64,000 nt of DNA, taken from positions 1 through 64,000 of the forward strand of contig JAQUVI010000001.1 of assembly GCA_028693445.1 (NCBI GenBank), in the 5' to 3' direction. The DNA is from Candidatus Absconditabacteria bacterium. GTDB lineage: Bacteria > Patescibacteriota > Gracilibacteria > Absconditabacterales > Absconditicoccaceae. This document shows positions 2,971-18,403 of this stretch, piece after piece. Each line of letters starts with the position of its first letter. Position 1 is the first letter of the stretch. The position numbers and the translations under genes are program-made. Under the pieces are notes generated by a model. It ran no database searches, was not told the origin of the DNA, and worked only from the letters and a program-made list of their open reading frames with translations.

Positions 2971-3017
2971 TGATTTTTTTGTCCTAACTTTGTCAGTATT
3001 TTTCTAGAAATAGATCT

Positions 3018-3037
3018 GTAAAGTTCACTCGCTTTAC
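3018..3037 (+). promoter_or_regulatory. 5' leader hairpin of the KilA-N gene
   Basis: GTAAAG, an 8-base loop and CTTTAC form a perfect 6-bp stem about 17 bases before the start codon. The same leader precedes the second KilA-N gene (6015-6034), pemK-2 (10256-10275) and their copies at 12860 and 17101. A conserved TTTGTCCTA...TTTGTCAG block lies just upstream. A role in expression is inferred from conservation before unrelated genes. Confidence 0.45.
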
Positions 3038-3054
3038 TTCGTAAACTAGGAAAG

Positions 3055-3882
3055 ATGAAAAAGACAACGGCAATCAATGTCCAATGAGTAGCTATTGGTA
3101 TAGTAGAAACCAACCAAGAAAGTTATATTAGTTTGACTGATATAGCTAGGTATAAGAATCCCAAAAGTGATTTGGTTATTCAAAATCGAATGAGAAATAG
3201 AAACACTATTGAATTTTTATGATTACGAGAATCTATAAATAATAAAAACTTTAAACCCCTCGAATTCGAGGGGTTTAGAAAAGAGGCTGGATTAAATTAT
3301 TTTCTTATGAGTCCAACCAAACGAATAAAAGTAACCAATGCTATATGAATAATAACCAAATCTTGAAAACATTTATGATGAACGTATGCACACAAAGATA
3401 TAGCTTTGGAATTTGCTAATCGAATTTCAGTTGAGTTTAGACTTTATTTCATCAAAGAATTTCAAAGACTCAAAGAACAAGAAGTTAAATCATTAGACCG
3501 AGATGTAAAAAGATTTCTGACTAAAATGAACTATAAAATTCATACTGATGCCATCAAAGATAATCTGATCCCCAAAGAACTTTCTCAAGACGAGATAAAT
3601 TATATTTATGCTGATGAGGCAGACGTTCTAAATAAGGCATTATTTGGACAAACAGCAAAACAACGAAAAGATCAGAACTTGGATAAAAGAGGAAATATGA
3701 GAGACTATGCAAACATAGAACAATTAATTATTTTAGCGAACCTAGAAAGTATAAATGCAGAATTTATCAAAATGTGACTAAATCAATCCAAACGTATTCA
3801 AATATTAAACCAAACAGCAATTAGCCAAATGAAATCATTAATTCAAAATCAGAGTAGTATTGTTTGATTAGAGAGTAAATAA
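3055..3882 (+). CDS. KilA-N domain protein 1
   Basis: 275 residues with UGA = Gly. The N-terminal half has the KilA-N core: YISLTDIA near residue 25, MRNRNTIEFLGL near 45, and GGTYAHKDIALEFAN followed by FRLYFIKEFQRLKEQE. KilA-N is a DNA-binding domain common in phage and large DNA virus regulators. The C-terminal half is helical and nearly identical to that of the paralogue at 6052. The gene sits between repeats R1 and R2 in an array of toxin-antitoxin and phage-regulator genes. A small inverted repeat inside the gene (CCCCTCGAATTCGAGGGG, 3256-3273) is coding. DNA binding is family knowledge; the target is unknown. Confidence 0.85.
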
Positions 3883-3894
3883 TTATTGACACAT

Positions 3895-3980
3895 ATAACC
3901 TCGCTTCGGCGTGGTACAAAGAACCCTTGGACTTTTATCCGGCAGAATTGCGGGACCGGTCTGAGGGTTTTTTGTGTTGT
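3895..3980 (+). repeat. Island repeat R2: hairpin plus terminator
   Basis: Same 86-bp element as R1, differing at one visible base (GTGGTAC for GTGGTGC). It lies 12 bases after the KilA-N stop codon and provides that gene's intrinsic terminator. Confidence 0.8.
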
Positions 3981-4160
3981 TGGGATTTTTTGTGGTTGTT
4001 GGCGTGGTTGCGGGGTTGTGTGGGTGTTGGGTGTAATATGGTGGGGTGTGGGGTGTACTCTAAGTCATTGCGAGAAGCCAAAGCGACGTGGCAATCTATG
4101 CGACTATTTTTTTGTCCTAAAGGCACTTGCCCCGCAGAATTGCCTGGTCAGTCCCGCTAA
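3981..4160 (+). repeat. G/T-rich spacer and GTCATTGCGAG palindromic repeat
   Basis: 3981-4060 is almost pure G and T on this strand and very unlike the AT-rich genes. At 4064-4098 lies an interspersed element beginning GTCATTGCGAG and ending GTGGCAATC, so ATTGC and GCAAT form terminal inverted repeats. Relatives are at 10175, 10910, 17020 and 17755. A CCCGCT/AGCGGG hairpin follows near 4153. No gene is supported here. Confidence 0.6.
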
Positions 4161-4212
4161 AGCGGGATAATTTACAACAGATCCAAAAATTATTTTTTTC
4201 TTTTTTTGTTGC

Positions 4213-4240
4213 TTGAAAAACTTATACAAATCTTTATAAT
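4213..4240 (+). promoter_or_regulatory. Promoter of hicBA-1
   Basis: TTGAAA, 16 bases, TATAAT, ending 30 bases before the hicB start codon. The 16-base spacing matches other native promoters here. The second copy is at 11058-11085. Confidence 0.65.
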
Positions 4241-4270
4241 GTACTTGGTTTTATATTTAACCAATAAAAA

Positions 4271-4519
4271 ATGTTTACAGATTATATTCATTATCTTCTA
4301 GCAAAAGCAGCTTATGAAAAAGATGAAAACTGATATATTGTTGCAAGTGTACCTTGATATCAAGGGTTTTTTTCACAATGACAAAATATAGAAGAAGCAA
4401 GAGAAAATCTTGTAGATGCTATTGAATGAGTTGTTTTTCATAAAATACAACATAACGATAAAAAAATAATTAAAGAAATAAAAACATTTATTTCCAAGCA
4501 AAATTTGCAATATGCCTAG
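4271..4519 (+). CDS. hicB: HicB-family antitoxin 1
   Basis: 82 residues. The HicB core is visible: GYIVASVPGYQGFFSQG, then NIEEARENLVDAIEG, the partial RNase-H-like fold of HicB antitoxins. These bind HicA and block its mRNA cleavage, and often repress their own operon. No C-terminal DNA-binding domain is evident in the short tail. hicA starts 8 bases inside this gene, so the two are translationally coupled. The order is antitoxin first. A TTGAAA-N16-TATAAT promoter lies just upstream. Confidence 0.85.
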
Positions 4520-4730
4520 ATTGGTTCCATTAAAACCAGAAGAAATTATCAAAAAATTAAGAAAATTATGATACGAATGACCTGAATCATGAGGTAGACA
4601 TTTACATATGATCAAATGACCAAATATAATACCAATTCCAAAACATTGATGAAGTGAAATATGAGTTGGTTTAATATCAAAGATCATTAAAGAAGTATGA
4701 ATTTCTAGAAACGAATGGATAGAATTATAA
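4512..4730 (+). CDS. hicA: HicA-family mRNA interferase toxin 1
   Basis: 72 residues with six UGA glycines. The family pattern is clear: LVPLKPEEIIKKLRKLGYE, then GGRHLHMIKG with the His of the HicA active-site loop, and IPIPKHGGSEIGVGLISKII. HicA is a small double-stranded-RNA-binding-fold ribonuclease that cleaves mRNA when free of HicB. It overlaps hicB by 8 bases and is followed by a strong terminator at 4794-4820. Confidence 0.88.
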
Positions 4731-4793
4731 TTAATCTCTTGTAGATCTAATTATTGACACATACGACTTTGTCTTCGGGCATCGTTCAGAAAG

Positions 4794-4820
4794 ACCCTTG
4801 GCTTCGGCTGAGGGTTTTTT
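4794..4820 (+). terminator. Terminator of hicBA-1
   Basis: ACCCTTGGC-TTCG-GCTGAGGGT followed by T6, a UUCG-capped hairpin. It is a short form of the island repeat without the 5' hairpin. The second copy is at 11639-11665. Confidence 0.85.
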
Positions 4821-4838
4821 GTGTTGTCAAAAAAAGAT

Positions 4839-4866
4839 TTGATTTTTGTATTTTTTCTTGTATAAT
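4839..4866 (+). promoter_or_regulatory. Promoter of dinD
   Basis: TTGATT, 16 bases, TATAAT, ending 30 bases before the start codon. The second copy is at 11684-11711. No LexA-type operator is recognisable. Confidence 0.65.
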
Positions 4867-4896
4867 TGTGGAAATTTATATTGTAATTAATAAGTA

Positions 4897-5727
4897 ATGG
4901 ATGAACTTAATACAGGTTTATTAATTAGTAAATTTGATAATATCAAAAATATAGATAGTTCTGTAGAATGGCGAAGAGCAAGAGATCTTCAAAAATTGCT
5001 TTGATATACAGAACGAAGAAATTTTTTCTTGGTAATAGAAAAAGCTAAAGAATCGTGTAAAACGTCTTGATCGGTTATAAAAGATCACTTTGTTGATGTC
5101 AACAAACCGATAATTGGTGGTAAGTGATCGATCCAACTTGTAGAAGATTTTATGCTTTCTCGTTTTGCTTGTTATCTTATTGCTCAAAATTGAGATCCAA
5201 GAAAACAAGAGATAGCTTTTGCTCAAGCTTATTTTGCTACACAAACAAGAAAACAAGAGATTTTAGAAAAATATATGGTAGAACATCAAAGACTTTTGAG
5301 TAGACAGAAATTAAAAAACACAGAAGCGGAATTTCAAAAGTTGGCATACGAAAGATGAGTTAATTGAGACTGAATAAGTAGAATAAGAAGTAAATGAGAT
5401 ACTGTTTTGTTTGGAGGTAAAACAACTCAAGATATGAAAAAATCTTATTGAATAAAAAGCTGACCCTTAGCTGATTATCTTCCAGAAGTTACTATCAAAG
5501 CAAAGGATTTGGCAACAGAAGTAACTAATTATAATATGAAAAACAAGAATCTTAAATGAGAGGATACTATAACACACGAACATATAAAAAATAATCAATG
5601 AGTTAGAGAGTACTTGATTCAAAGTTGAATAAAACCCGAAGAATTACCACCATCAGAAGATATTAAGAAGATTGAAAGAAGACACAAAAAAGACGAAAAA
5701 ATAATTTCCAAAAGATGATTAAATTAA
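4897..5727 (+). CDS. dinD: DinD-like DNA-damage-inducible protein
   Basis: 276 residues. The N-terminal half matches the DinD family: SSVEWRRARDLQKLLGYTER, NFFLVIEKAKESCKTSG, DHFVDVNKPI, FMLSRFACYLIAQNGDP and QAYFATQTRKQEI in the usual order. DinD inhibits RecA filaments in Escherichia coli and shares a BRO-like domain with phage antirepressors. The C-terminal half is also family-like (GDTVLFGG, then DYLPEVTIKAKDLATE). The ATG at 4897 follows a clear promoter. Unlike the toxins, it has no opposing RNA gene downstream. RecA inhibition is known only from the family. Confidence 0.85.
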
Positions 5728-5738
5728 TCTCTCTTGGA

Positions 5739-5882
5739 GATCTAATTGTTAGACATATATAACTAAACCAACCAAAGAATCTGTAAAGAAATTGCTTTGG
5801 ATTTGTTAAGAATACCGCTGATTTGAGAAATTGTAAGTCATTGGAATTGAAATGAATTACAACTTTCGAAAACAAGCGGTAT
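5739..5882 (+). repeat. Two-hairpin 3' module after dinD
   Basis: Contains CCAAAG...CTTTGG and then a long imperfect hairpin bounded by ATACCGCT and AGCGGTAT (5812-5882), with an inner arm pairing AAATTGTAAGTCATT with AATGAATTACAACTTT. The same module follows the Bro-N gene (9048-9192) with few changes, and both recur in the second direct-repeat copy. It joins directly to island repeat R4. It may be an RNA structure or a small non-autonomous element. Confidence 0.55.
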
Positions 5883-5967
5883 AACCTCGCCTCGGCGTGG
5901 TACAAAGAACCCTTGGACTTTTATCCGGCAGAATTGCGGGATCGGTCTGAGGGTTTTTTGTGTTGTT
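5881..5967 (+). repeat. Island repeat R4: hairpin plus terminator
   Basis: Full-length module-end repeat with CTCG in place of TTCG at the first hairpin tip and GGGATCGG for GGGACCGG in the arm. It ends with the AGGGTTTTTTG terminator. The second copy is at 12726-12812. Confidence 0.8.
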
Positions 5968-6051
5968 GTTTTCTTTTGTCCTACTTTTGTCAGTTTTTTT
6001 CTTTTTTTGTATCTGTAAAGTTCACTCGCTTTACTTCGTAATATAGGAAAA

Positions 6052-6873
6052 ATGAAAAAAACGACAGCGATCAATGTCCAATGAGTAGCTATTGGCATAG
6101 TAGAAACCAACCAAGAAAGCTATATTAGTTTGACTGATATGGTAAAAAATTTTTGAGACGATGCTATGATCTATAGTTGGATGAGAAACAGATCTACTTT
6201 ACAATTTATTTGATTATGGGAACAGTTACACAATCCAAATTTTAAAGGTAACGAATTCGAGACCTTTAAAAAAGAAGCATGATTGAACACATTCAATTTA
6301 ACACCAAGAAAATGGATAGAAGCGACTAATGCTATATGAATAATTTCAAAGGCGTGAAGATATTGAGGATGAACTTATGCACACAAGGATATTGCATTTG
6401 AGTTTGCCTCTTGGTTAAGTCCTGAATTTAAACTTTATCTTATCAAAGAATTCCAAAGACTCAAAGAACAAGAAGTCAAAGCATTAGATCGAGATGTAAA
6501 AAGATTTCTGACTAAAATGAACTATAGAATCCATACAGACGCTATTCAAGATTATCTTGTGCCCAAAGAACTTTCTAAAGACGAAATAAACCATATTTAC
6601 GCCGATGAGGCAGATGTGCTAAACAAATCATTATTTGGACAAACAGCAAAACAGCGAAAAGATAAGAATTTAACAAAAAAATGAAATATGAGGGATTTCG
6701 CGACAATAGAACAACTAATAATCTTAGCAAACCTAGAAAGTATCAATGCAGAGTTTATCAAAATGTGAATAAACCAATCCAAACGTCTTCAGATATTAAA
6801 CCAAACAGCAATTAGCCAAATGAAATCATTGATCCAAAATCAGAATAGAATTGTTTGATTAGAGAATAAATAA
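6052..6873 (+). CDS. KilA-N domain protein 2
   Basis: 273 residues, paralogue of the gene at 3055. The first 25 residues and the last 150 are almost identical to that protein, while the DNA-binding core (residues about 30-110) differs strongly, with MIYSWMRNRSTLQFIGL and WIEATNAIGIISKAGRYGGG. GGTYAHKDIAFEFASWLSPE is the KilA-N signature. Divergence confined to the recognition domain suggests different DNA targets with a shared partner or oligomer surface (inference). It has the same leader hairpin as its paralogue. Confidence 0.85.
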
Positions 6874-6885
6874 TTATTGACATAT

Positions 6886-6972
6886 ATAACCTCGCTTCTG
6901 CGTGGTGCAAAGAACCCTTGGACTTTTATCCGGCAGAATTGCGGGACCGGTCTGAGGGTTATTTGTGTTGTT
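6886..6972 (+). repeat. Island repeat R5: hairpin plus weakened terminator
   Basis: Module-end repeat with the T tract interrupted (GGGTTATTTG), so termination here is probably weaker. The second copy is at 13731-13817. Confidence 0.75.
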
Positions 6973-7009
6973 GGGATTTTTTGTGGTTTTTTGTTGTTGG
7001 CGTTGTTGC

Positions 7010-7054
7010 GGGGTGGGTGTTGGGTGTAGGGTTGGGTGTGCGTGTAGGGTTGGG
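7010..7054 (+). other. G-quadruplex-capable G-run cluster
   Basis: Consecutive runs GGGG-T-GGG-TGTT-GGG-TGTA-GGG-TT-GGG, followed by two more GGG runs. This meets the usual G3-loop pattern several times over on the + strand. It sits in a G/T-rich spacer and recurs at 13855-13899. Folding has not been shown. Confidence 0.6.
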
Positions 7055-7096
7055 TGTGCATGTGTGGTATTTGGTGCGTGTGCGTGTATGGTATGT

Positions 7097-7120
7097 AGAG
7101 ACGCGATTAATCGCGTCTCT
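7097..7120 (+). repeat. 24-bp perfect palindrome
   Basis: AGAGACGCGATT followed by its exact reverse complement. Related or identical palindromes lie at 9377-9400 (GGCGCG variant), 13942-13965, 16222-16245 and, in frame within a gene, at 28774-28797. It is an interspersed palindromic repeat. Confidence 0.8.
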
Positions 7121-7220
7121 AACCGTAACCGTAACCGTAACCGTAACCGTAACCGTAACCGTAACCGTAACCGTAACCGTAACCGTAACCGTAACCGTAA
7201 CCGTAACCGTAACCGTAACC
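7121..7220 (+). repeat. (AACCGT)n tandem array
   Basis: Nearly 17 exact 6-bp units directly after the palindrome. Every reading frame through it is open, which creates spurious open frames with periodic peptides such as TVTV or RNRN. An array of the same length is at 13966-14065. Confidence 0.95.
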
Positions 7221-7329
7221 ACGCCAAAACATTATTATCAACCAACAAAAATCTTTGTCCTACTTTTGTCAGTTTTTTTCTTTGTAAAATTGTATATAGT
7301 CCGCATATTTAATTTTTAACTTATAAAAA

Positions 7330-7824
7330 ATGTGCGATATTGTAATACAATCCTTAAAAGAAACCATACAATCCTTGGACGAAAACCAAAAATTAGAATG
7401 AGAAAGCTTTGTTTATCGATCAAAGAAAAAAATTAAAATACATTTCAAAAAGATAGAAGGTATTTTTGTACCACATAAATGAGAAATATACTATGTTCAG
7501 TTATGAAAAAATATTTCTACAGAATTAAATAAGAAAAGACCATGTATTGTTTGGAGTGAAAAAAAATATAATGCATGATGAAATCTTCTTATATTACCAC
7601 TGAAAACTTATCGTAATAAATTTCAAGAATGATACAATGTTGTTATAGACTCTACCAAAAACAACTGATTAACAAGAAAATCAATAATTACAATAACAGA
7701 TATAAAATCAGTTTCAAAAAATAGATTTTGAGGTAAAATATGAAACATTGAAGAAAAATATATGCAAATTATAGATCAGAAATTACAAGTTATTTTATGA
7801 TTAAAAAAACCCCTAAGCTACTAG
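7330..7824 (+). CDS. PemK/MazF-like toxin 1
   Basis: 164 residues with UGA = Gly. After a 55-residue N-terminal extension comes the PemK/MazF core: GEIYYVQLGKN, KKRPCIVWSEKKYNAGGN, LLILPLKTY, then SIITITDIKSVSKNRFGGKIG. These match the beta-barrel ribonuclease fold (G-IYYVDLG, RP-LV, PLT, QI--ISK-RL-KIG). No antitoxin gene is adjacent. Instead an apparent small RNA gene converges on the 3' end and its terminator overlaps the last 22 bases. The short N-terminal extension is shared in kind with the other two toxins. mRNA cleavage is inferred from the family. Confidence 0.82.
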
Positions 7825-7880
7825 AACTTAGAGGTAGATTCGCCCAATGTCTTGGGAACTAAGGATACTTCCTTAGAGAT
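7803..7880 (-). ncRNA. Predicted convergent small RNA 1
   Basis: On the minus strand a promoter at 7887-7914 is followed by about 78 bases that fold into three hairpins: CTAAGGA-AGTA-TCCTTAG, CCCAA-GACA-TTGGG, and a terminator CTAAG-loop-CTTAG followed by T7. The terminator lies inside the 3' end of the toxin gene, so the RNA is antisense to the last 22 bases of the toxin mRNA. No open frame of use is present. It is a candidate RNA antitoxin or regulator; transcription is inferred. Confidence 0.6.
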
Positions 7881-7886
7881 GATGCA

Positions 7887-7914
7887 ATTATAACAAAAAC
7901 ATTCCAAATTGCAA
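7887..7914 (-). promoter_or_regulatory. Promoter of small RNA 1
   Basis: Minus-strand TTGCAA, 16 bases, TATAAT, inside a stretch conserved at all three RNA types (TTTTGATTTGCAA upstream). Start expected near 7880. The second copy is at 14732-14759. Confidence 0.65.
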
Positions 7915-7920
7915 ATCAAA

Positions 7921-8004
7921 ATAACCTCACTTTTGCGTGGTGCGAAGTCCTCCGCGAAGTCGGGGGCAAAGAACCCTTAGACTTCAGTCTGAGGGTTTTT
8001 TGTG
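7921..8004 (+). repeat. Island repeat R6, variant with extra hairpin
   Basis: Starts ATAACCTCAC, carries an inserted CCTCCGCGAAGTCGGGGG hairpin, and ends with the compact terminator AACCCTTAGAC-TTCA-GTCTGAGGGTT plus T6. The second copy is at 14766-14849. Between here and 8130 an ACCGAT...ATCGGT hairpin lies near 8077-8108. Confidence 0.75.
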
Positions 8005-8130
8005 AAAATAAGCAAAGAATCTGTTGCTTAGTTGCTTGTACCCTTTAGGGTGCTTTGCTATATTTGAACAATACCGATGTGTTGAGTCGCCATCAAGAAA
8101 CCAATCGGTGTTGTGTTGTCAAAAAAAGAT

Positions 8131-8159
8131 TTGATTTTTATTTGTAAATTGTTTATAAT
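8131..8159 (+). promoter_or_regulatory. Promoter of the Bro-N gene
   Basis: TTGATT, 17 bases, TATAAT, ending 29 bases before the start codon. The sequence before it (GTTGTCAAAAAAAGATTTGATTT) equals that before dinD. The second copy is at 14976-15004. Confidence 0.65.
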
Positions 8160-8188
8160 TGACGTGTTTAGCTTGTAATCATATAAAA

Positions 8189-9040
8189 ATGTCAGGTATA
8201 AATAACACTATCACTGAAATTTCTTTATTTGATGTTTTTGAAGTTAGAAAAATTCGATACAATGAAGAACGATATTTTCCCATTAATGATATCGTTTTTG
8301 TTCTTACAGAAAGCAAAAATGTTGTTGATTATATCAAAAAATTGAAAATTAGAGATAAAGAGCTCTTGAAAGGATGGGGACAAATTGTCACCCCCCTTTG
8401 GGTAGATACCAAATGATGACGCCAAAAACTCAACTGTACCAATACAAAATGAGCGCTTAGAATCCTCCAATCTATCTCATCTCCCAAAGCAGAACCATTT
8501 AAACAATGGTTGGCTTCACTTTGAAATGAAAGGTTGGATGAAATTAATAATCCAGAATTATGAATTCAAAGAGCAAAAGCTAGAGCTATTGAGATACGAA
8601 GAAAACAATGACATGATGAAAAATGGATTACAAAAAGATTACAAAGTATAGATACAAGAAATTCTTTTACAGATTTACTCAAAGAGAGAGGAATCAAAGA
8701 TTGGTTTGAGTATGCTTTGTTGACCAATAAAGTTTATAGTGTTTGATTGTGAGTACCTGGTTGAGCGTCGGAATATAGAAATATAAAATGAATCAAAAAA
8801 ACAGATAATCTTAGAGATCATATGGATAATTTGGAAATAGCATTAGTTGATTTAGCAGAAGCATGATCCCAAAAAATTATGGAAGAGAAATGAAGTAAGT
8901 GATTTGAAGAAGTCCAGGATGCTGTAATTATATGATCATGAGTCGCATGAGAAGCTAGAGATACTATAGAAAAATATATATGAAAACCAATTATTTCTGA
9001 TAAAAATTATAAACCGGATTCCAAAAAATGATTAAATTAA
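8189..9040 (+). CDS. Bro-N / phage antirepressor-like protein
   Basis: 283 residues. The Bro-N core is visible: ISLFDVFEVRKIRYNEERYF, INDIVFVLTESKNVVDYIKK, GWGQIVTPLWVDTKGGRQKL, then ISSPKAEPFKQWLA, a hallmark of prophage antirepressor proteins. The following part (ARAIEIRRKQGHDEKWITKR, then FTDLLKERGI) is the usual C-terminal extension of this family in bacteria. It ends in KKGLN like DinD and is followed by the same two-hairpin module, so the 3' halves of the two units are related. The DNA-binding role is family knowledge. Confidence 0.85.
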
Positions 9041-9047
9041 TCTCTCG

Positions 9048-9192
9048 AGATCTAATTGTTAGACATATATAACTAAACCAACCAAAGAATCTGTAAAGAA
9101 ATTGCTTTGGATTGGTTAAGAATACCGCTGATTTGAGAAATTGTAAGTCATTGGAATTGAAATGAATTACAACTTTCGAAAACAAGCGGTAT
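9048..9192 (+). repeat. Two-hairpin 3' module after Bro-N
   Basis: Nearly identical to 5739-5882, including the ATACCGCT/AGCGGTAT closing arms. It runs directly into island repeat R7. Confidence 0.55.
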
Positions 9193-9272
9193 ACCCTCGC
9201 CTCGGCGTGGTACATAGAACCCTTGGACTTTTATCCGGCAGAATTGCGGGACCGGTCTGAGGGTTTTTTGTG
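9191..9272 (+). repeat. Island repeat R7: hairpin plus terminator
   Basis: Module-end repeat starting ATACCCTCGC and ending AGGGTTTTTTGTG. After it come a G/T-rich stretch (9290-9376), a variant palindrome (9377-9400) and a GTCATCCCT...GGGGATC hairpin near 9439. No gene is seen in 9273-9564. The second copy is at 16036-16117. Confidence 0.75.
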
Positions 9273-9376
9273 AAAATAAAATTTTGTTGTGTGCAGGGTT
9301 GGTGTGGTTGCGGGGTGCGGGGCGGTGTCGGTTGGGATGTGTAATGTGGTTGCGTGTGTGCGTGTATATGATATGT

Positions 9377-9400
9377 AGAGGCGCGATTAATCGCGCCTCT
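9377..9400 (+). repeat. 24-bp palindrome, GC variant
   Basis: AGAGGCGCGATT plus its reverse complement. Compared with the palindrome at 7097, the A-T pair near each end is exchanged for G-C on both arms, so the change is compensated and pairing is kept. The second copy is at 16222-16245. Confidence 0.75.
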
Positions 9401-9564
9401 AACCGTACATCATTTCATCGTTTTGTTTGTTGTTTCTTTGTCATCCCTAACTTGATTGGGGATCTTAGCTGAATGTTTTTTTTCATGGGGATGATATAGA
9501 TGACCAATCTGGATTTCCTCTCCAAATTGCAATCCAAACGGTATCAGTAAATCATTACATTGTA

Positions 9565-9592
9565 TTGAATTTGTCAAAAATATTGTTAAAAT
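9565..9592 (+). promoter_or_regulatory. Promoter of hicBA-2
   Basis: TTGAAT, 16 bases, TAAAAT, ending 31 bases before hicB-2. The second copy is at 16410-16437. Confidence 0.5.
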
Positions 9593-9623
9593 TCAGACAC
9601 ATTTATGATTTAACTATAAAAAG

Positions 9624-9836
9624 ATGGAAATAATAATAAGAAAAGATGGGGAATGATACATAGCAGAAGTAAAATCTAAACCAAATATTTATGCTTTTTG
9701 ATATTCAAAAGAAGAGGCTTTGAGTGAGTTAAAAAATGTAGTAGATATGATGGTTGATTTTTATTCACAAGAAATGTCTTTTCAAAAGAAAGTTAAAAAG
9801 TTTTTGATAAACAAATCTTATACATATGCCGTATAA
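9624..9836 (+). CDS. hicB: HicB-family antitoxin 2
   Basis: 70 residues. IIIRKDGEGYIAEVKSKPN and YSKEEALSELKNVVDMMV give the compact HicB fold. It is much shorter than many HicB proteins and lacks a DNA-binding tail. It overlaps hicA-2 by 11 bases. It differs in sequence from hicB-1, so the two systems are likely separate pairs. Confidence 0.8.
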
Positions 9837-10041
9837 ATTCCGCGATATAGAAAGAAGGCTCAGAAAATTGTGATTTGATATTGTAAGACAAAAATGATCT
9901 CATGTGATTTTTTCTGATTGAAAGATAACTTTCCCTGTTCCAAACCATTGATGAAAGGATATATCTCCATGAGTAGAAAAGAAAATTCTAGAATTCATCT
10001 CCAAAAATAAACAAGATTTTGATAAAATTTTAGATATATAA
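9826..10041 (+). CDS. hicA: HicA-family mRNA interferase toxin 2
   Basis: 71 residues. RDIERRLRKLGFDIVRQKGSHVIFSDGK contains the GSH active-site motif, followed by FPVPNHGGKDISPGVEKKIL. This is closer to the canonical HicA consensus than HicA-1. Its TAA stop lies inside the first bases of island repeat R8 (ATAACC), so the repeat abuts the coding region directly. Confidence 0.85.
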
Positions 10042-10103
10042 CCTCGCTTCGGCGTGGTACAGAAAAACCCTTGAACTCCGGTCTGAGGGTTTTTTGTGTT
10101 GTT
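10038..10103 (+). repeat. Island repeat R8, short form
   Basis: ATAACCTCGCTTCGGCGTGG hairpin, then AACCCTTGAACTCCGGTCTGAGGGTT plus T6. The central arm is deleted. It supplies the hicA-2 stop codon and terminator. The second copy is at 16883-16948. Confidence 0.8.
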
Positions 10104-10174
10104 GGATTTTTGTGGTTGTTGGCGTGGTTGCGGGGTGCGGGGCGTAATTTGGTGGTGCGTGTGCTGTGCTCTCA

Positions 10175-10203
10175 GTCATTGCGAGCGACAGCGCGGCAAT
10201 CCA
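10175..10203 (+). repeat. GTCATTGCGAG palindromic repeat
   Basis: GTCATTGCGAGCGACAGCGC followed by GGCAATCCA; ATTGC and GCAAT pair. It lies before pemK-2, after a G/T-rich spacer. The second copy is at 17020-17048. Confidence 0.6.
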
Positions 10204-10292
10204 TACGGTTATTTCTTTGTCCTAACTTTGTCAGTTTTTTTCTTTTTTTGTATCTGTAAAGTTCACTCGCTTTACTTTGTAAACTAGGAAAG

Positions 10293-10721
10293 ATGAAAAA
10301 GACAGATGTGATTTTTGATTTGTGGAATGGTAAAAAGAAAAATATAGAAAAAGAAACATCCAAAAAGATAGTCAAAAAAAGACAGATTCGATTATATTAT
10401 GTTTGAATTAATGTATGAAACGAGGAAAGCAAAGACAACCCTTTTATTAGACCTTGCTTGATTGTAAATAATTATTTTAGATGAGATCTTGTTTTAATTG
10501 TTCCTATGACGACCAAAATAAATACAAATCTCAAAGATATTTATTATCAGATTGATTGAACTAAATATTGATTAAACAAAACCAGTTATGTCTTATGTAA
10601 CCAAATAAAAGTAATAAGTAAAAAAAGATTAAATAGAAAACTAAATGATACAGATGATATCTCTCTGCTAAATAATGATGTTTTTTTGGAAATTATAGAG
10701 AAATTAAAAAGTTTTATATAA
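10293..10721 (+). CDS. PemK/MazF-like toxin 2
   Basis: 142 residues. The core runs from QIRLYYVGINVG through IRPCLIVNNYFRGDLVLIVP and TTKINT to SYVLCNQIKVISKKRLNRKL. The RP-LIVNN and PMT motifs and the QIK-ISK-RL segment are family marks. It has an N-terminal extension of about 35 residues starting with a FDLWN motif shared with toxin 3 (FDIWN). It uses the KilA-N type of leader hairpin. No antitoxin gene is adjacent; a convergent RNA gene begins beyond its 3' end. Confidence 0.82.
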
Positions 10722-10779
10722 AAAAATCCCCTGCAGTATTGCAGGGTCAGGTGGATACGCAAAAGCTATCCTTATTTGT
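10720..10779 (-). ncRNA. Predicted convergent small RNA 2
   Basis: About 60 bases on the minus strand after the promoter at 10786-10813. It has a GGATA...TATCC hairpin and a perfect terminator CCCTGCA-ATAC-TGCAGGG followed by T7. It reaches only the stop codon of the toxin gene. Its sequence is unrelated to small RNAs 1 and 3, although promoter and layout match. Confidence 0.6.
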
Positions 10780-10785
10780 ACTATA

Positions 10786-10813
10786 ATTATAGCAAAAGAT
10801 TTGTGAAATGCAA
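10786..10813 (-). promoter_or_regulatory. Promoter of small RNA 2
   Basis: Minus-strand TTGCAT, 16 bases, TATAAT, with the same TTTTGATTTGCA block as the other two RNA promoters. The second copy is at 17631-17658. Confidence 0.65.
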
Positions 10814-10819
10814 ATCAAA

Positions 10820-10905
10820 ATAACCTCGCCTCGGCGTGGTACATAGAACCCTTTGACTTTTATCTGGCAGAATTGCGGGACCGGTCTGAGGGTTTTTTGT
10901 GTTGT
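10820..10905 (+). repeat. Island repeat R9: hairpin plus terminator
   Basis: Full-length module-end repeat (AACCCTTTGAC arm). A GTCATTGCGAG element at 10910-10943 follows and marks the junction between the two long repeat copies. Confidence 0.8.
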
Positions 10906-11115
10906 CAAAGTCATTGCGAGGAGCCAAAGCGACGTGGCAATCCATGCGGTAGTTTTTTTGTCCTAAAGGCACTTGCCCGCAGAATTGCCTGGTCAGTCCC
11001 GCTAAAGCGGGATAATTTACAACAGATCCAAAAATTATTTTTTTCTTTTTTTGTTGCTTGAAAAACTTATACAAATCTTTATAATGTACTTGGTTTTATA
11101 TTTAACCAATAAAAA

Positions 11116-11364
11116 ATGTTTACAGATTATATTCATTATCTTCTAGCAAAAGCAGCTTATGAAAAAGATGAAAACTGATATATTGTTGCAAGTGTACCTT
11201 GATATCAAGGGTTTTTTTCACAATGACAAAATATAGAAGAAGCAAGAGAAAATCTTGTAGATGCTATTGAATGAGTTGTTTTTCATAAAATACAACATAA
11301 CGATAAAAAAATAATTAAAGAAATAAAAACATTTATTTCCAAGCAAAATTTGCAATATGCCTAG
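11116..11364 (+). CDS. hicB: HicB-family antitoxin 1, second copy
   Basis: Same sequence as the gene at 4271-4519 (82 residues), within copy B of the long repeat. Same promoter (11058-11085) and the same 8-base overlap with hicA. Confidence 0.85.
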
Positions 11365-11575
11365 ATTGGTTCCATTAAAACCAGAAGAAATTATCAAAAA
11401 ATTAAGAAAATTATGATACGAATGACCTGAATCATGAGGTAGACATTTACATATGATCAAATGACCAAATATAATACCAATTCCAAAACATTGATGAAGT
11501 GAAATATGAGTTGGTTTAATATCAAAGATCATTAAAGAAGTATGAATTTCTAGAAACGAATGGATAGAATTATAA
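11357..11575 (+). CDS. hicA: HicA-family toxin 1, second copy
   Basis: Same sequence as 4512-4730 (72 residues), followed by the UUCG-capped terminator at 11639-11665. Confidence 0.86.
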
Positions 11576-11741
11576 TTAATCTCTTGTAGATCTAATTATT
11601 GACACATACGACTTTGTCTTCGGGCATCGTTCAGAAAGACCCTTGGCTTCGGCTGAGGGTTTTTTGTGTTGTCAAAAAAAGATTTGATTTTTGTATTTTT
11701 TCTTGTATAATTGTGGAAATTTATATTGTAATTAATAAGTA

Positions 11742-12572
11742 ATGGATGAACTTAATACAGGTTTATTAATTAGTAAATTTGATAATATCAAAAATATAGA
11801 TAGTTCTGTAGAATGGCGAAGAGCAAGAGATCTTCAAAAATTGCTTTGATATACAGAACGAAGAAATTTTTTCTTGGTAATAGAAAAAGCTAAAGAATCG
11901 TGTAAAACGTCTTGATCGGTTATAAAAGATCACTTTGTTGATGTCAACAAACCGATAATTGGTGGTAAGTGATCGATCCAACTTGTAGAAGATTTTATGC
12001 TTTCTCGTTTTGCTTGTTATCTTATTGCTCAAAATTGAGATCCAAGAAAACAAGAGATAGCTTTTGCTCAAGCTTATTTTGCTACACAAACAAGAAAACA
12101 AGAGATTTTAGAAAAATATATGGTAGAACATCAAAGACTTTTGAGTAGACAGAAATTAAAAAACACAGAAGCGGAATTTCAAAAGTTGGCATACGAAAGA
12201 TGAGTTAATTGAGACTGAATAAGTAGAATAAGAAGTAAATGAGATACTGTTTTGTTTGGAGGTAAAACAACTCAAGATATGAAAAAATCTTATTGAATAA
12301 AAAGCTGACCCTTAGCTGATTATCTTCCAGAAGTTACTATCAAAGCAAAGGATTTGGCAACAGAAGTAACTAATTATAATATGAAAAACAAGAATCTTAA
12401 ATGAGAGGATACTATAACACACGAACATATAAAAAATAATCAATGAGTTAGAGAGTACTTGATTCAAAGTTGAATAAAACCCGAAGAATTACCACCATCA
12501 GAAGATATTAAGAAGATTGAAAGAAGACACAAAAAAGACGAAAAAATAATTTCCAAAAGATGATTAAATTAA
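11742..12572 (+). CDS. dinD: DinD-like protein, second copy
   Basis: Same sequence as 4897-5727 (276 residues). Promoter at 11684-11711. The two-hairpin module (12584-12727) and repeat R4' (12726-12812) follow. Confidence 0.85.
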
Positions 12573-12725
12573 TCTCTCTTGGAGATCTAATTGTTAGACA
12601 TATATAACTAAACCAACCAAAGAATCTGTAAAGAAATTGCTTTGGATTTGTTAAGAATACCGCTGATTTGAGAAATTGTAAGTCATTGGAATTGAAATGA
12701 ATTACAACTTTCGAAAACAAGCGGT

Positions 12726-12812
12726 ATAACCTCGCCTCGGCGTGGTACAAAGAACCCTTGGACTTTTATCCGGCAGAATTGCGGGATCGGTCTGAGGGTT
12801 TTTTGTGTTGTT
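12726..12812 (+). repeat. Island repeat R4', second copy
   Basis: Same as 5881-5967; ends the dinD unit. Confidence 0.8.
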
Positions 12813-12896
12813 GTTTTCTTTTGTCCTACTTTTGTCAGTTTTTTTCTTTTTTTGTATCTGTAAAGTTCACTCGCTTTACTTCGTAATATAGGAAAA

Positions 12897-13718
12897 ATGA
12901 AAAAAACGACAGCGATCAATGTCCAATGAGTAGCTATTGGCATAGTAGAAACCAACCAAGAAAGCTATATTAGTTTGACTGATATGGTAAAAAATTTTTG
13001 AGACGATGCTATGATCTATAGTTGGATGAGAAACAGATCTACTTTACAATTTATTTGATTATGGGAACAGTTACACAATCCAAATTTTAAAGGTAACGAA
13101 TTCGAGACCTTTAAAAAAGAAGCATGATTGAACACATTCAATTTAACACCAAGAAAATGGATAGAAGCGACTAATGCTATATGAATAATTTCAAAGGCGT
13201 GAAGATATTGAGGATGAACTTATGCACACAAGGATATTGCATTTGAGTTTGCCTCTTGGTTAAGTCCTGAATTTAAACTTTATCTTATCAAAGAATTCCA
13301 AAGACTCAAAGAACAAGAAGTCAAAGCATTAGATCGAGATGTAAAAAGATTTCTGACTAAAATGAACTATAGAATCCATACAGACGCTATTCAAGATTAT
13401 CTTGTGCCCAAAGAACTTTCTAAAGACGAAATAAACCATATTTACGCCGATGAGGCAGATGTGCTAAACAAATCATTATTTGGACAAACAGCAAAACAGC
13501 GAAAAGATAAGAATTTAACAAAAAAATGAAATATGAGGGATTTCGCGACAATAGAACAACTAATAATCTTAGCAAACCTAGAAAGTATCAATGCAGAGTT
13601 TATCAAAATGTGAATAAACCAATCCAAACGTCTTCAGATATTAAACCAAACAGCAATTAGCCAAATGAAATCATTGATCCAAAATCAGAATAGAATTGTT
13701 TGATTAGAGAATAAATAA
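12897..13718 (+). CDS. KilA-N domain protein 2, second copy
   Basis: Same sequence as 6052-6873 (273 residues), with the same leader hairpin (12860-12879) and the weakened terminator repeat at 13731-13817 downstream. Confidence 0.85.
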
Positions 13719-13730
13719 TTATTGACATAT

Positions 13731-13817
13731 ATAACCTCGCTTCTGCGTGGTGCAAAGAACCCTTGGACTTTTATCCGGCAGAATTGCGGGACCGGTCTGA
13801 GGGTTATTTGTGTTGTT
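13731..13817 (+). repeat. Island repeat R5', second copy
   Basis: Same as 6886-6972, including the interrupted T tract. A G-quadruplex-capable cluster (13855-13899) follows. Confidence 0.75.
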
Positions 13818-13941
13818 GGGATTTTTTGTGGTTTTTTGTTGTTGGCGTTGTTGCGGGGTGGGTGTTGGGTGTAGGGTTGGGTGTGCGTGTAGGGTTGGGT
13901 GTGCATGTGTGGTATTTGGTGCGTGTGCGTGTATGGTATGT

Positions 13942-14065
13942 AGAGACGCGATTAATCGCGTCTCTAACCGTAACCGTAACCGTAACCGTAACCGTAACCG
14001 TAACCGTAACCGTAACCGTAACCGTAACCGTAACCGTAACCGTAACCGTAACCGTAACCGTAACC
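13942..14065 (+). repeat. Palindrome and (AACCGT)n array, second copy
   Basis: 24-bp palindrome at 13942-13965, then the 6-bp tandem array at 13966-14065 with the same number of units as copy A. Confidence 0.9.
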
Positions 14066-14174
14066 ACGCCAAAACATTATTATCAACCAACAAAAATCTT
14101 TGTCCTACTTTTGTCAGTTTTTTTCTTTGTAAAATTGTATATAGTCCGCATATTTAATTTTTAACTTATAAAAA

Positions 14175-14669
14175 ATGTGCGATATTGTAATACAATCCTT
14201 AAAAGAAACCATACAATCCTTGGACGAAAACCAAAAATTAGAATGAGAAAGCTTTGTTTATCGATCAAAGAAAAAAATTAAAATACATTTCAAAAAGATA
14301 GAAGGTATTTTTGTACCACATAAATGAGAAATATACTATGTTCAGTTATGAAAAAATATTTCTACAGAATTAAATAAGAAAAGACCATGTATTGTTTGGA
14401 GTGAAAAAAAATATAATGCATGATGAAATCTTCTTATATTACCACTGAAAACTTATCGTAATAAATTTCAAGAATGATACAATGTTGTTATAGACTCTAC
14501 CAAAAACAACTGATTAACAAGAAAATCAATAATTACAATAACAGATATAAAATCAGTTTCAAAAAATAGATTTTGAGGTAAAATATGAAACATTGAAGAA
14601 AAATATATGCAAATTATAGATCAGAAATTACAAGTTATTTTATGATTAAAAAAACCCCTAAGCTACTAG
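14175..14669 (+). CDS. PemK/MazF-like toxin 1, second copy
   Basis: Same sequence as 7330-7824 (164 residues), with the same convergent RNA gene at its 3' end. Confidence 0.82.
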
Positions 14670-14725
14670 AACTTAGAGGTAGATTCGCCCAATGTCTTGG
14701 GAACTAAGGATACTTCCTTAGAGAT
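14648..14725 (-). ncRNA. Predicted convergent small RNA 1, second copy
   Basis: Same as 7803-7880, with its promoter at 14732-14759 and repeat R6' at 14766-14849. Confidence 0.6.
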
Positions 14726-14765
14726 GATGCAATTATAACAAAAACATTCCAAATTGCAAATCAAA

Positions 14766-14849
14766 ATAACCTCACTTTTGCGTGGTGCGAAGTCCTCCGC
14801 GAAGTCGGGGGCAAAGAACCCTTAGACTTCAGTCTGAGGGTTTTTTGTG
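14766..14849 (+). repeat. Island repeat R6', second copy
   Basis: Same as 7921-8004. Confidence 0.75.
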
Positions 14850-15033
14850 AAAATAAGCAAAGAATCTGTTGCTTAGTTGCTTGTACCCTTTAGGGTGCTT
14901 TGCTATATTTGAACAATACCGATGTGTTGAGTCGCCATCAAGAAACCAATCGGTGTTGTGTTGTCAAAAAAAGATTTGATTTTTATTTGTAAATTGTTTA
15001 TAATTGACGTGTTTAGCTTGTAATCATATAAAA

Positions 15034-15885
15034 ATGTCAGGTATAAATAACACTATCACTGAAATTTCTTTATTTGATGTTTTTGAAGTTAGAAAAATTC
15101 GATACAATGAAGAACGATATTTTCCCATTAATGATATCGTTTTTGTTCTTACAGAAAGCAAAAATGTTGTTGATTATATCAAAAAATTGAAAATTAGAGA
15201 TAAAGAGCTCTTGAAAGGATGGGGACAAATTGTCACCCCCCTTTGGGTAGATACCAAATGATGACGCCAAAAACTCAACTGTACCAATACAAAATGAGCG
15301 CTTAGAATCCTCCAATCTATCTCATCTCCCAAAGCAGAACCATTTAAACAATGGTTGGCTTCACTTTGAAATGAAAGGTTGGATGAAATTAATAATCCAG
15401 AATTATGAATTCAAAGAGCAAAAGCTAGAGCTATTGAGATACGAAGAAAACAATGACATGATGAAAAATGGATTACAAAAAGATTACAAAGTATAGATAC
15501 AAGAAATTCTTTTACAGATTTACTCAAAGAGAGAGGAATCAAAGATTGGTTTGAGTATGCTTTGTTGACCAATAAAGTTTATAGTGTTTGATTGTGAGTA
15601 CCTGGTTGAGCGTCGGAATATAGAAATATAAAATGAATCAAAAAAACAGATAATCTTAGAGATCATATGGATAATTTGGAAATAGCATTAGTTGATTTAG
15701 CAGAAGCATGATCCCAAAAAATTATGGAAGAGAAATGAAGTAAGTGATTTGAAGAAGTCCAGGATGCTGTAATTATATGATCATGAGTCGCATGAGAAGC
15801 TAGAGATACTATAGAAAAATATATATGAAAACCAATTATTTCTGATAAAAATTATAAACCGGATTCCAAAAAATGATTAAATTAA
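15034..15885 (+). CDS. Bro-N protein, second copy
   Basis: Same sequence as 8189-9040 (283 residues). Promoter at 14976-15004. The two-hairpin module and repeat R7' (16036-16117) follow. Confidence 0.85.
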
Positions 15886-16035
15886 TCTCTCGAGATCTAA
15901 TTGTTAGACATATATAACTAAACCAACCAAAGAATCTGTAAAGAAATTGCTTTGGATTGGTTAAGAATACCGCTGATTTGAGAAATTGTAAGTCATTGGA
16001 ATTGAAATGAATTACAACTTTCGAAAACAAGCGGT

Positions 16036-16117
16036 ATACCCTCGCCTCGGCGTGGTACATAGAACCCTTGGACTTTTATCCGGCAGAATTGCGGGACCGG
16101 TCTGAGGGTTTTTTGTG
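16036..16117 (+). repeat. Island repeat R7', second copy
   Basis: Same as 9191-9272. A G/T-rich spacer and the GC-variant palindrome (16222-16245) follow, with no gene until 16469. Confidence 0.75.
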
Positions 16118-16468
16118 AAAATAAAATTTTGTTGTGTGCAGGGTTGGTGTGGTTGCGGGGTGCGGGGCGGTGTCGGTTGGGATGTGTAATGTGGTTGCGT
16201 GTGTGCGTGTATATGATATGTAGAGGCGCGATTAATCGCGCCTCTAACCGTACATCATTTCATCGTTTTGTTTGTTGTTTCTTTGTCATCCCTAACTTGA
16301 TTGGGGATCTTAGCTGAATGTTTTTTTTCATGGGGATGATATAGATGACCAATCTGGATTTCCTCTCCAAATTGCAATCCAAACGGTATCAGTAAATCAT
16401 TACATTGTATTGAATTTGTCAAAAATATTGTTAAAATTCAGACACATTTATGATTTAACTATAAAAAG

Positions 16469-16681
16469 ATGGAAATAATAATAAGAAAAGATGGGGAATG
16501 ATACATAGCAGAAGTAAAATCTAAACCAAATATTTATGCTTTTTGATATTCAAAAGAAGAGGCTTTGAGTGAGTTAAAAAATGTAGTAGATATGATGGTT
16601 GATTTTTATTCACAAGAAATGTCTTTTCAAAAGAAAGTTAAAAAGTTTTTGATAAACAAATCTTATACATATGCCGTATAA
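16469..16681 (+). CDS. hicB: HicB-family antitoxin 2, second copy
   Basis: Same sequence as 9624-9836 (70 residues). Promoter at 16410-16437. Confidence 0.8.
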
Positions 16682-16886
16682 ATTCCGCGATATAGAAAGA
16701 AGGCTCAGAAAATTGTGATTTGATATTGTAAGACAAAAATGATCTCATGTGATTTTTTCTGATTGAAAGATAACTTTCCCTGTTCCAAACCATTGATGAA
16801 AGGATATATCTCCATGAGTAGAAAAGAAAATTCTAGAATTCATCTCCAAAAATAAACAAGATTTTGATAAAATTTTAGATATATAA
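16671..16886 (+). CDS. hicA: HicA-family toxin 2, second copy
   Basis: Same sequence as 9826-10041 (71 residues). The stop codon again lies in the first bases of the short repeat R8' (16883-16948). Confidence 0.85.
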
Positions 16887-16948
16887 CCTCGCTTCGGCGT
16901 GGTACAGAAAAACCCTTGAACTCCGGTCTGAGGGTTTTTTGTGTTGTT
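16883..16948 (+). repeat. Island repeat R8', second copy
   Basis: Same as 10038-10103. A GTCATTGCGAG element (17020-17048) and the leader hairpin (17101-17120) follow before pemK-2. Confidence 0.8.
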
Positions 16949-17137
16949 GGATTTTTGTGGTTGTTGGCGTGGTTGCGGGGTGCGGGGCGTAATTTGGTGG
17001 TGCGTGTGCTGTGCTCTCAGTCATTGCGAGCGACAGCGCGGCAATCCATACGGTTATTTCTTTGTCCTAACTTTGTCAGTTTTTTTCTTTTTTTGTATCT
17101 GTAAAGTTCACTCGCTTTACTTTGTAAACTAGGAAAG

Positions 17138-17566
17138 ATGAAAAAGACAGATGTGATTTTTGATTTGTGGAATGGTAAAAAGAAAAATATAGAAAAAGAA
17201 ACATCCAAAAAGATAGTCAAAAAAAGACAGATTCGATTATATTATGTTTGAATTAATGTATGAAACGAGGAAAGCAAAGACAACCCTTTTATTAGACCTT
17301 GCTTGATTGTAAATAATTATTTTAGATGAGATCTTGTTTTAATTGTTCCTATGACGACCAAAATAAATACAAATCTCAAAGATATTTATTATCAGATTGA
17401 TTGAACTAAATATTGATTAAACAAAACCAGTTATGTCTTATGTAACCAAATAAAAGTAATAAGTAAAAAAAGATTAAATAGAAAACTAAATGATACAGAT
17501 GATATCTCTCTGCTAAATAATGATGTTTTTTTGGAAATTATAGAGAAATTAAAAAGTTTTATATAA
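17138..17566 (+). CDS. PemK/MazF-like toxin 2, second copy
   Basis: Same sequence as 10293-10721 (142 residues), with the convergent RNA 2 at its 3' end. Confidence 0.82.
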
Positions 17567-17624
17567 AAAAATCCCCTGCAGTATTGCAGGGTCAGGTGGA
17601 TACGCAAAAGCTATCCTTATTTGT
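17565..17624 (-). ncRNA. Predicted convergent small RNA 2, second copy
   Basis: Same as 10720-10779, promoter at 17631-17658. Confidence 0.6.
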
Positions 17625-17664
17625 ACTATAATTATAGCAAAAGATTTGTGAAATGCAAATCAAA

Positions 17665-17750
17665 ATAACCTCGCCTCGGCGTGGTACATAGAACCCTTTG
17701 ACTTTTATCTGGCAGAATTGCGGGACCGGTCTGAGGGTTTTTTGTGTTGT
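17665..17750 (+). repeat. Island repeat R9', second copy
   Basis: Same as 10820-10905. The GTCATTGCGAG element at 17755-17783 follows, where the long repeat ends. Confidence 0.8.
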
Positions 17751-17871
17751 CAAAGTCATTGCGAGCGGCAGCGTGGCAATCCATGTGGTTGTTTCTTTGT
17801 CCTAACTTTGTCAGTTTTTTTCTTTGTAAAATTGTATATAGTCCACAAACTTTATATACTAACCAAAGAAA

Positions 17872-18273
17872 ATGGACAACAAAAAGGAGTTGTTTGATAT
17901 TTGGAATGAGGAAAAAAAACATGTTGCACAAAAAGAACAGAAAATATATTTTAAGGAAAGAGATGTATTTTTCATAAGTATGTGAAAAAATATATGACGA
18001 GAACAGAATGGTAAATGAAGTAAATTCGCAAGACCTGTAATAATTATAAAAAAATTTACAAACAATTTATTTCGATGAGTAGCATTAACAACCAAAAAGA
18101 AAACATGAATCTATTATTATGAATTTGATTTAAAAAGTAATAAATGAAAAAGAATAGCTATTTTATCTCAGATAAAACTTTATGACTCAAAGAGAATGTT
18201 AAGCAAAATCTGATTTATTGATGAGAAAGATTTTTTATATATAAGAAAAAAACTTACTGAACTATTGCAGTAA
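17872..18273 (+). CDS. PemK/MazF-like toxin 3
   Basis: 133 residues. The FDIWNEE N-terminus resembles toxin 2 (FDLWNGK). The core is DVFFISMGKNIGREQNGKG, FARPVIIIKKFTNNLFRGVA, TTKKKTG, then RIAILSQIKLYDSKRMLSKIG. This is the best PemK match of the three: G-IGREQNG-G--FARPV is close to the MazF/PemK consensus. The leader up to the start (GTAAAATTGTATATAGTCC) is shared with pemK-1. No protein antitoxin is present. A convergent RNA gene overlaps its last 28 bases. Confidence 0.85.
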
Positions 18274-18369
18274 GCATGTTTTCTGTCCCAACATAAGTTA
18301 GGACGATCCCGAAGGAGTTTTTGTGCCTGTGCCAGATAGTCCGGCAAAATGGGACGAACCCTTCAGACA
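18246..18369 (-). ncRNA. Predicted convergent small RNA 3, highly structured
   Basis: About 124 bases on the minus strand. An outer stem GTCCCA...TGGGAC encloses GCC-GGACTATCT-GGC and a CCTTCGGG hairpin. After it comes a perfect terminator CTTACTG-CAATAGTT-CAGTAAG followed by T7, lying within the toxin gene's 3' end. It is longer and more folded than RNAs 1 and 2. This is the strongest structural case for a functional RNA in the island. No known RNA family is recognised. Confidence 0.62.
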
Positions 18370-18375
18370 CAATTA

Positions 18376-18403
18376 ATTATAACAAAAACTTTTCAAATTG
18401 CAA
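18376..18403 (-). promoter_or_regulatory. Promoter of small RNA 3
   Basis: Minus-strand TTGCAA, 16 bases, TATAAT; the core and the TTTTTGTTATAATT context equal those of RNA 1. Confidence 0.68.

Follow-up and report, generated by a model that had tools for sequence, protein, structure and literature searches.

The locus at positions 17872-18403 of the window (the whole 64-kb stretch of DNA that was analysed) raises the question of how a toxin of the MazF/PemK family is kept in check when no protein antitoxin is its neighbour. The original prediction held that there is none beside the gene and that a small RNA from the opposite strand may take its place. Indeed, no protein antitoxin can be recognised next to 17872-18273; the nearest toxin-antitoxin genes are a HicA gene (16671-16886) and its UPF0150-like partner, which scores below its cut-off. 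We consider it likely that the locus is a toxin-antitoxin module made up of an N-terminally extended MazF endoribonuclease and, convergent with its gene at the 3' end, a gene for a small structured RNA that neutralises it.

The toxin

A sensible reading of the 64-kb window requires TGA to specify glycine (NCBI code 25), and the toxin ORF (17872-18273, plus strand, 133 aa), which contains seven TGA codons, is open solely under that reading. The protein matches the PemK_toxin family PF02452 with 31.7 bits (E 1.9e-7), above the curated cut-off of 23.1. The 20 PDB sequence matches obtained by profile search are named MazF, PemK, EndoA or Kid, the AlphaFold2 model (pLDDT 80.8) has the MazF fold, and the best 50 of 106 Foldseek matches at E <= 0.001 are all MazF-type. 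Profile and fold searches alike group the toxin with MazF/EndoA, and ToxN is absent both from the 20 PDB sequence matches and from the best 50 of the 106 fold matches.

Ahead of the MazF core the protein carries an N-terminal extension with the motif FDxWNxEKK, for which the model proposes a helix (residues 4-19, low confidence). In the alignment of 20 extended toxins behind our profile A1, the residues F8, D9, K15, R54 and T73/T74 are nearly invariant. R54 and T73/T74 are presumably the catalytic residues of a MazF-type toxin, and the protein is a putative endoribonuclease.

The predicted convergent RNA

The promoter that had been predicted on the minus strand, TTGCAA-N16-TATAAT, is present at 18403-18376; it can equally be read as TTTGCA-N17-TATAAT (18404-18376), has a TG ahead of the -10 element and is conserved at homologous loci. 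A sigma-70-type promoter of its own would start the RNA. In agreement with the approximately 124 bases proposed originally, the predicted transcript runs over 125 nt (18370-18246, predicted ends) and folds into stems with -44.5 kcal/mol (z -5.15; none of 200 shuffles equal). It consists of a further hairpin module at the 5' end, a conserved core of two short hairpins (18324-18277) and a terminator, which was also correctly placed within the 3' end of the toxin gene: a stem-loop at 18275-18252 is followed by a T-run to about 18246. The RNA overlaps the last codons and the stop codon of the toxin by about 28 nt, and the conserved core lies entirely past the stop codon. With covariance model R2 the core scores 41.8 bits (E 1.6e-6), the sequence itself being among the 26 on which R2 was trained.

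In an Rfam 15 search of the window only tRNA was found, and 12 further loci have no match at E <= 0.5 that overlaps the RNA. A LOOT RNA (RF03000, 74.3 bits) lies at 2153-2270 of locus L164, about 670 bp from an RNA-toxin locus in genome G351. The scan of the DNA detected four terminators where shuffled sequences led us to expect 1.1, and 16 promoter-like sites against 13.9 expected. A lone promoter-like site is unremarkable in such AT-rich DNA, and the case therefore depends on conservation.

Other PemK genes of the window and the genome

Two other PemK/MazF toxins are encoded in the window, both on the plus strand. The extended toxin at 17138-17566 (PF02452, E 1.8e-13) is followed by a convergent promoter at 17659-17631 and a predicted RNA at 17624-17565 (z -3.82), the second of whose two hairpins is the terminator (17591-17574). 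The third toxin, with a longer N-terminal extension (14175-14669; E 3.1e-20), has its convergent promoter at 14760-14732 and its predicted RNA at 14725-14648 (z -3.32). The promoters were located by pattern search, and they recur on the minus strand at the exact duplicates of the two genes: at 10814-10786 for the copy of the second toxin (10293-10721) and at 7915-7887 for that of the third (7330-7824). Every PemK gene of the window, the duplicate copies included, has the promoter block at its 3' end.

These duplicates belong to two stretches, 4131-10920 and 10976-17765, which agree at every position over 6790 bp (offset 6845), so that an array of KilA-N, BRO-N, HicA and PemK genes is present twice in tandem; the exact duplication is either very recent or an assembly artefact. 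Within 2885-17755 an intergenic element (GCCTCGGCGTGGTAC..CCGGTCTGAGGGTTTTTTGTG), about 86 bp long, separates the array genes about ten times, for example at 17665-17750, 16036-16117, 13731-13816 and 12726-12811. An intergenic hexamer tract, (CCGTAA)n, lies at about 13966-14066 and has its duplicate 6845 bp upstream.

In the 1.17-Mb genome PF02452 has ten matches, which represent eight distinct genes. Reading of the 3' ends revealed a convergent promoter, hairpins and a terminator at seven of the eight. The eighth gene (C11:303553) lacks the convergent layout and is preceded by a gene encoding an HTH and a SocA_Panacea domain; with this SocA/Panacea protein antitoxin in place of an RNA it provides an internal contrast. 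A relaxed pattern of the promoter block occurs at seven places in the genome, six of which are PemK 3' ends (four distinct toxins, two of them duplicated); the seventh, beside the end of an FtsX-like gene, is taken as chance. The block follows none of the KilA-N, BRO and HicA genes of the array.

Conservation in the family, class and phylum

Within the bacterial family, PF02452 matches were obtained in 18 of the 49 genomes. By reading, the convergent RNA is carried by those toxins that have the FDxWNxEKK segment or a longer N-terminal extension. The short classical PemK genes of the family are without it, and nine of them have an antitoxin-like gene upstream. A Pfam search with four of these nine upstream genes returned SocA_Panacea, MazE_antitoxin, RHH_1 and, in one case, no significant family; the others we assume to be antitoxin-like.

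Profile A1 matches at least 91 of the 288 genomes of the class (E <= 1e-8) and at least 43 of the 379 of the phylum (E <= 1e-15). From these the strongest loci were chosen, 81 class regions (83 gene matches) and 26 phylum loci, which are thus not a random sample, and part of them was read by eye. The layout is present, by reading, in all 26 phylum loci.

Under a fixed scoring rule (best convergent promoter within 230 nt after the stop codon, threshold 10 of 12), a strong convergent promoter follows 100 of the 128 extended MazF genes and 48 of the 240 control ORFs from the same loci (Fisher p 1e-27); the scores of toxins and controls overlap, as the 48 control ends show. In the same-strand direction the threshold is reached at 34 of the 128 extended MazF ends. 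Seven of 155 loci were left out, four with too little downstream DNA and three containing N. Among 20 further PemK loci that score below 60 bits with A1, eight reach 10; six of these are extension-type toxins with the RNA, and two (G036, G030_a) are without it. With a looser weighted score (pass at 9), 121 of the 134 loci with a profile score of 45 or more pass, and 12 of the remaining 13 show the layout by eye. The idea of an RNA antitoxin has therefore survived a search for homologous toxin loci without promoter and hairpins, in the genome (seven of eight genes) as well as in the phylum. The single clear miss is G113:C76:1248, where there is no convergent RNA. At that locus (L112) two extended MazF genes stand in tandem on one strand, and the miss is one of the two.

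These comparisons also bear on the possibility that the hairpins are merely terminators, or repeat- or integron-like elements that end a gene array by chance. Such a reading could appeal to the repeat-rich array with its 6.8-kb duplication in which the toxins of the window lie, and to the terminator-like stems that a permissive scan, run without a shuffle control, found on both strands (113/121 loci on the RNA strand, 70/121 on the other). It is extremely improbable, given that six of the seven pattern matches in the genome are at PemK genes and none follows the other array genes, that the block recurs in unrelated contexts throughout the phylum, on plasmids and on a prophage, and that the spacing from promoter to hairpin is near constant across loci. 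An integron-cassette interpretation, with the hairpins as attC-like sites, was dropped, as the block is tied to PemK 3' ends and occurs phylum-wide in other contexts.

RNA structure and covariation

The core of the RNA has a recurring order: the leader ACAAA(U) is followed by hairpin 1, which a short linker joins to hairpin 2, and then by an A-rich tail or U-tract. The RNA would end at a terminator that lies at the 3' end of the toxin gene or within it. Hairpin 1, which often has a UUCG loop, takes forms such as GUCC-UUCG-GGAU, GGC-UUCG-GCC, GGCC-ACUA-GGCC and GUCUAGA-UAAA-UCUAGAU. A hairpin of at least 3 bp that starts 4-8 nt into the RNA is predicted at 77 of 121 loci, compared with 489 of 3630 shuffles, and 55 distinct hairpins are found among these 77; at the other 44 of the 121 loci the predicted fold has no hairpin 1 in the expected place. 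Two or more hairpins are predicted at 90 of 121 loci and in 27% of shuffles (mean folding z -2.5). The RNA is usually a single unit, two imperfect units being visible by eye in a few cases (G004_b, G043_d). From the predicted start of the RNA to the toxin stop codon the median distance is 57 nt, so that the 50-nt core lies mostly outside the gene.

Since MAFFT could not align hairpin 2, further sequences were aligned with R1, a covariance model built on three. It yielded 33 matches at E <= 1, three of them elsewhere in their loci (L033:1232, L179:919, L081:2097), and a stricter set of 26 was used. The counts lean towards the structure of the model by which the alignment was made: 95.6% of the cells are paired, compared with 68.7 in shuffled and at most 58.4 in slid alignments. 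Two-sided changes occur in all 11 pairs, and none of 500 shuffles was as high on each of five measures. The alignment holds 22 G.U cells and one A.C cell, which favours the minus strand, though the model leans that way. The covariation that the original prediction had proposed as a check is thus found across homologous loci.

Protein and peptide antitoxins

Of 126 extended toxins, 57 are preceded by a same-strand ORF of at least 40 aa that ends near the toxin start. A recurring protein family was not found among these 57 upstream ORFs, which are mutually unrelated except for three pairs.

An antitoxin could also be a tiny peptide translated from the convergent transcript, and 39 of 119 RNAs do have an AUG in their first 10 nt. 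As the frames that it opens range from 2 to 52 codons, a conserved peptide is unlikely; with 80 of the 119 RNAs lacking such an AUG and hairpin lengths that vary freely, we regard this explanation as very improbable. A crude count, which includes runs into the toxin gene, gave an ORF of at least 15 codons in 50 of 134 RNA stretches and was set aside. A small peptide antitoxin on the opposite strand is disfavoured by the frame lengths.

RNA copies without an intact toxin

A 20-nt pattern derived from the RNAs, applied to one genome per species, has 12 matches, eight of them in Patescibacteria. The other four (Verrucomicrobia, Pirellula, Nanoarchaeota and Spirochaetales records) have neither a toxin nor a visible promoter, about two matches being estimated by chance. 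Six of the eight Patescibacteria matches are loci already in our set, and their toxins are therefore no new evidence. The two new ones are L161, a Campbellbacteria record in which the locus is cut by the contig end and the C-terminus of a toxin can be made out by eye, and L154, where the RNA has no toxin. The same pattern has no match in viral contigs, where two protein scans gave no confirmed relative either.

Model R2, built on the 26 sequences, has 28 matches in 23 of the 288 class genomes. An extended MazF gene adjoins 22 of the 28, and 20 of these 22 are training sequences. Among the eight untrained matches, two adjoin intact toxins (G013:C15, G102:C69), one adjoins a toxin remnant of 28 aa (G059), a further two are orphan RNAs that have a terminator (G209, with a clear promoter, and G002, where the promoter is not clear), and three (G105, G041, G048) look like chance. 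In addition, the toxin gene at G043:C1:1063994 is broken by an in-frame stop and its RNA is intact. Copies without an adjoining toxin lie at 194-300 of L154, about 1500-1590 of L197 and near 950-1000 of L204; they are candidates for leftover or anti-addiction RNAs. RNAs that outlast their toxins are to be expected of an antitoxin.

MazF toxins are open to inhibition by antitoxins encoded at other loci. It could be argued on that ground, and from the strength and conservation of the convergent promoter, that the RNA regulates transcription only (through convergent interference or as a protein-bound attenuator), or is a guide or substrate of MazF, with the true antitoxin elsewhere. We hold this to be quite unlikely: orphan RNAs keep their structure without a toxin, conservation extends to the structure of the RNA itself, and no protein family recurs upstream.

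The similarity of the RNAs follows that of the toxins (Mantel r 0.456, reached by none of 500 permutations), whereas the flanking DNA follows it much less (r 0.085, also 0/500). Common descent of the unit explains this coupling as well as pair specificity does.

Relatives outside the phylum

A tblastn search with a member that uses the standard code identified relatives on plasmids and phages; among those read, the ones with the N-terminal motif belong to the Campylobacterota. The toxin of a Nitratiruptor plasmid (MEEVNPFDQWNKIKK...) is encoded about 0.8 kb from a replication gene. Relatives of this toxin were also seen on Campylobacter plasmids (H30-H57), in three tblastn pieces per plasmid. 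At the 3' ends of the genes on the Nitratiruptor plasmid, on a Helicobacter suis plasmid and in the Campylobacter phage CJIE4 a convergent -10 element (TATAAT, TACAAT and TATAAT, respectively) and hairpins are found. The fold of the Nitratiruptor RNA has a z of -4.4; the values for Helicobacter suis and CJIE4, -3.0 and -2.2, refer to stretches that include promoter DNA. Model R2 has no match in the RNAs of these three, and the relationship of the Campylobacterota loci to the others thus rests on layout and toxin and does not yet extend to an RNA sequence model.

A proteomic study detected the CJIE4 MazF protein in each of five isolates; its authors could find no gene for MazE (PMC3995785). A dRNA-seq study of C. 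jejuni includes the CJIE4 carrier RM1221 and reports small RNAs of the Campylobacter pTet plasmid by Northern blot (Dugar et al.; PMC3656092).

Proposed mode of action

The original prediction left open whether the RNA would act by base pairing or by direct binding. Conservation and covariation support an RNA antitoxin, whose neutralising effect would most likely come from binding to the toxin protein and blocking its RNA-binding site. Classical PemK proteins encoded in the same genomes lack the N-terminal extension, which is a candidate RNA-binding element. Being convergent, the toxin and RNA genes may in addition interfere with each other's transcription.

An antisense mechanism resembling type I systems appears unlikely; in it, base pairing of the RNA to the toxin mRNA at its 3' end would cause decay of the message or block its expression, and the RNA would not bind the protein. 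The overlap with the last codons of the toxin (about 28 nt in the window) and the complementarity to any read-through 3' UTR would suit it, and convergent overlapping RNA antitoxins are described for small-peptide type I toxins (PMC6563280). However, the RNA is far from the toxin start, and the two-hairpin shape is kept, with compensatory changes, outside the gene. Direct binding is favoured over pairing by this conserved shape and by the accumulation of the MazF protein in growing CJIE4 lysogens (PMC3995785).

Comparison with known toxin-antitoxin systems

A convergent RNA antitoxin for MazF was not found in published reports within the open-licence PMC literature. On balance, we lean somewhat towards a new kind of toxin-antitoxin system in Patescibacteria and on Campylobacterota plasmids and prophages, in which a MazF with an N-terminal RNA-docking segment would have exchanged its protein antitoxin for a convergent two-hairpin RNA and diversified into many toxin-specific pairs (seven in the 1.17-Mb genome). 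The convergence would couple the two genes, transcription of the toxin lowering the supply of antitoxin and the reverse. Such a system would supply an antitoxin to many MazF toxins of ultra-small, mostly uncultured bacteria that seem to be orphans, and also to the Campylobacter prophage MazF for which the lack of a MazE gene is on record (PMC3995785). It would also mean that an RNA can act as antitoxin to a true MazF, and that neither an upstream place nor tandem repeats are needed. The profile can be used to find more such modules, and the Nitratiruptor plasmid pair, which uses the standard code, makes the system testable in E. coli.

With the type II systems MazEF and PemIK the modules share a toxin of the MazF/PemK family, but an adjoining MazE or other conserved protein antitoxin is lacking here and the toxin has an extra N-terminal segment. 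Convergent overlap of 3' ends is also known from type I pairs of B. subtilis. In the C. difficile pairs the RNA likewise overlaps the 3' end of the toxin gene, but their toxins are small peptides, countered by an RNA through long complementarity (PMC6563280), whereas the toxin of the window is a 133-aa protein with the RNase fold of MazF, not a small hydrophobic one, and the core of its RNA lies outside the gene. The MazF of prophage CJIE4 (CJE1470) shares the N-terminal motif (FDKWNNEKKK), a convergent promoter and a terminator hairpin, and no MazE is reported for it (PMC3995785); its RNA differs in having no match to the core model from Patescibacteria.

The likeness to type III systems (ToxIN, CptIN, TenpIN) that was originally proposed stands as a comparison of mechanism and fails as a class membership, since layout, as the prediction itself noted, toxin family and RNA architecture differ. 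Common to both would be a structured RNA that inhibits a MazF/Kid-like endoribonuclease, a strong output of RNA and a terminator beside the toxin. The published description of type III lists as criteria an operon with one promoter, upstream tandem repeats, a terminator, a ToxN-type toxin and a pseudoknot (PMC5086642). In those systems, as described there, the antitoxin lies upstream on the same strand, shares the promoter of a ToxN-type toxin and is built of tandem repeats and pseudoknots (PMC5086642). Here the RNA lies downstream on the opposite strand with a promoter of its own, adjoins a true MazF, and is usually a single two-hairpin unit, as predicted by folding that considered nested structures only. 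By the printed criteria the system is thus not type III, and by the proposed mechanism it would work like one.
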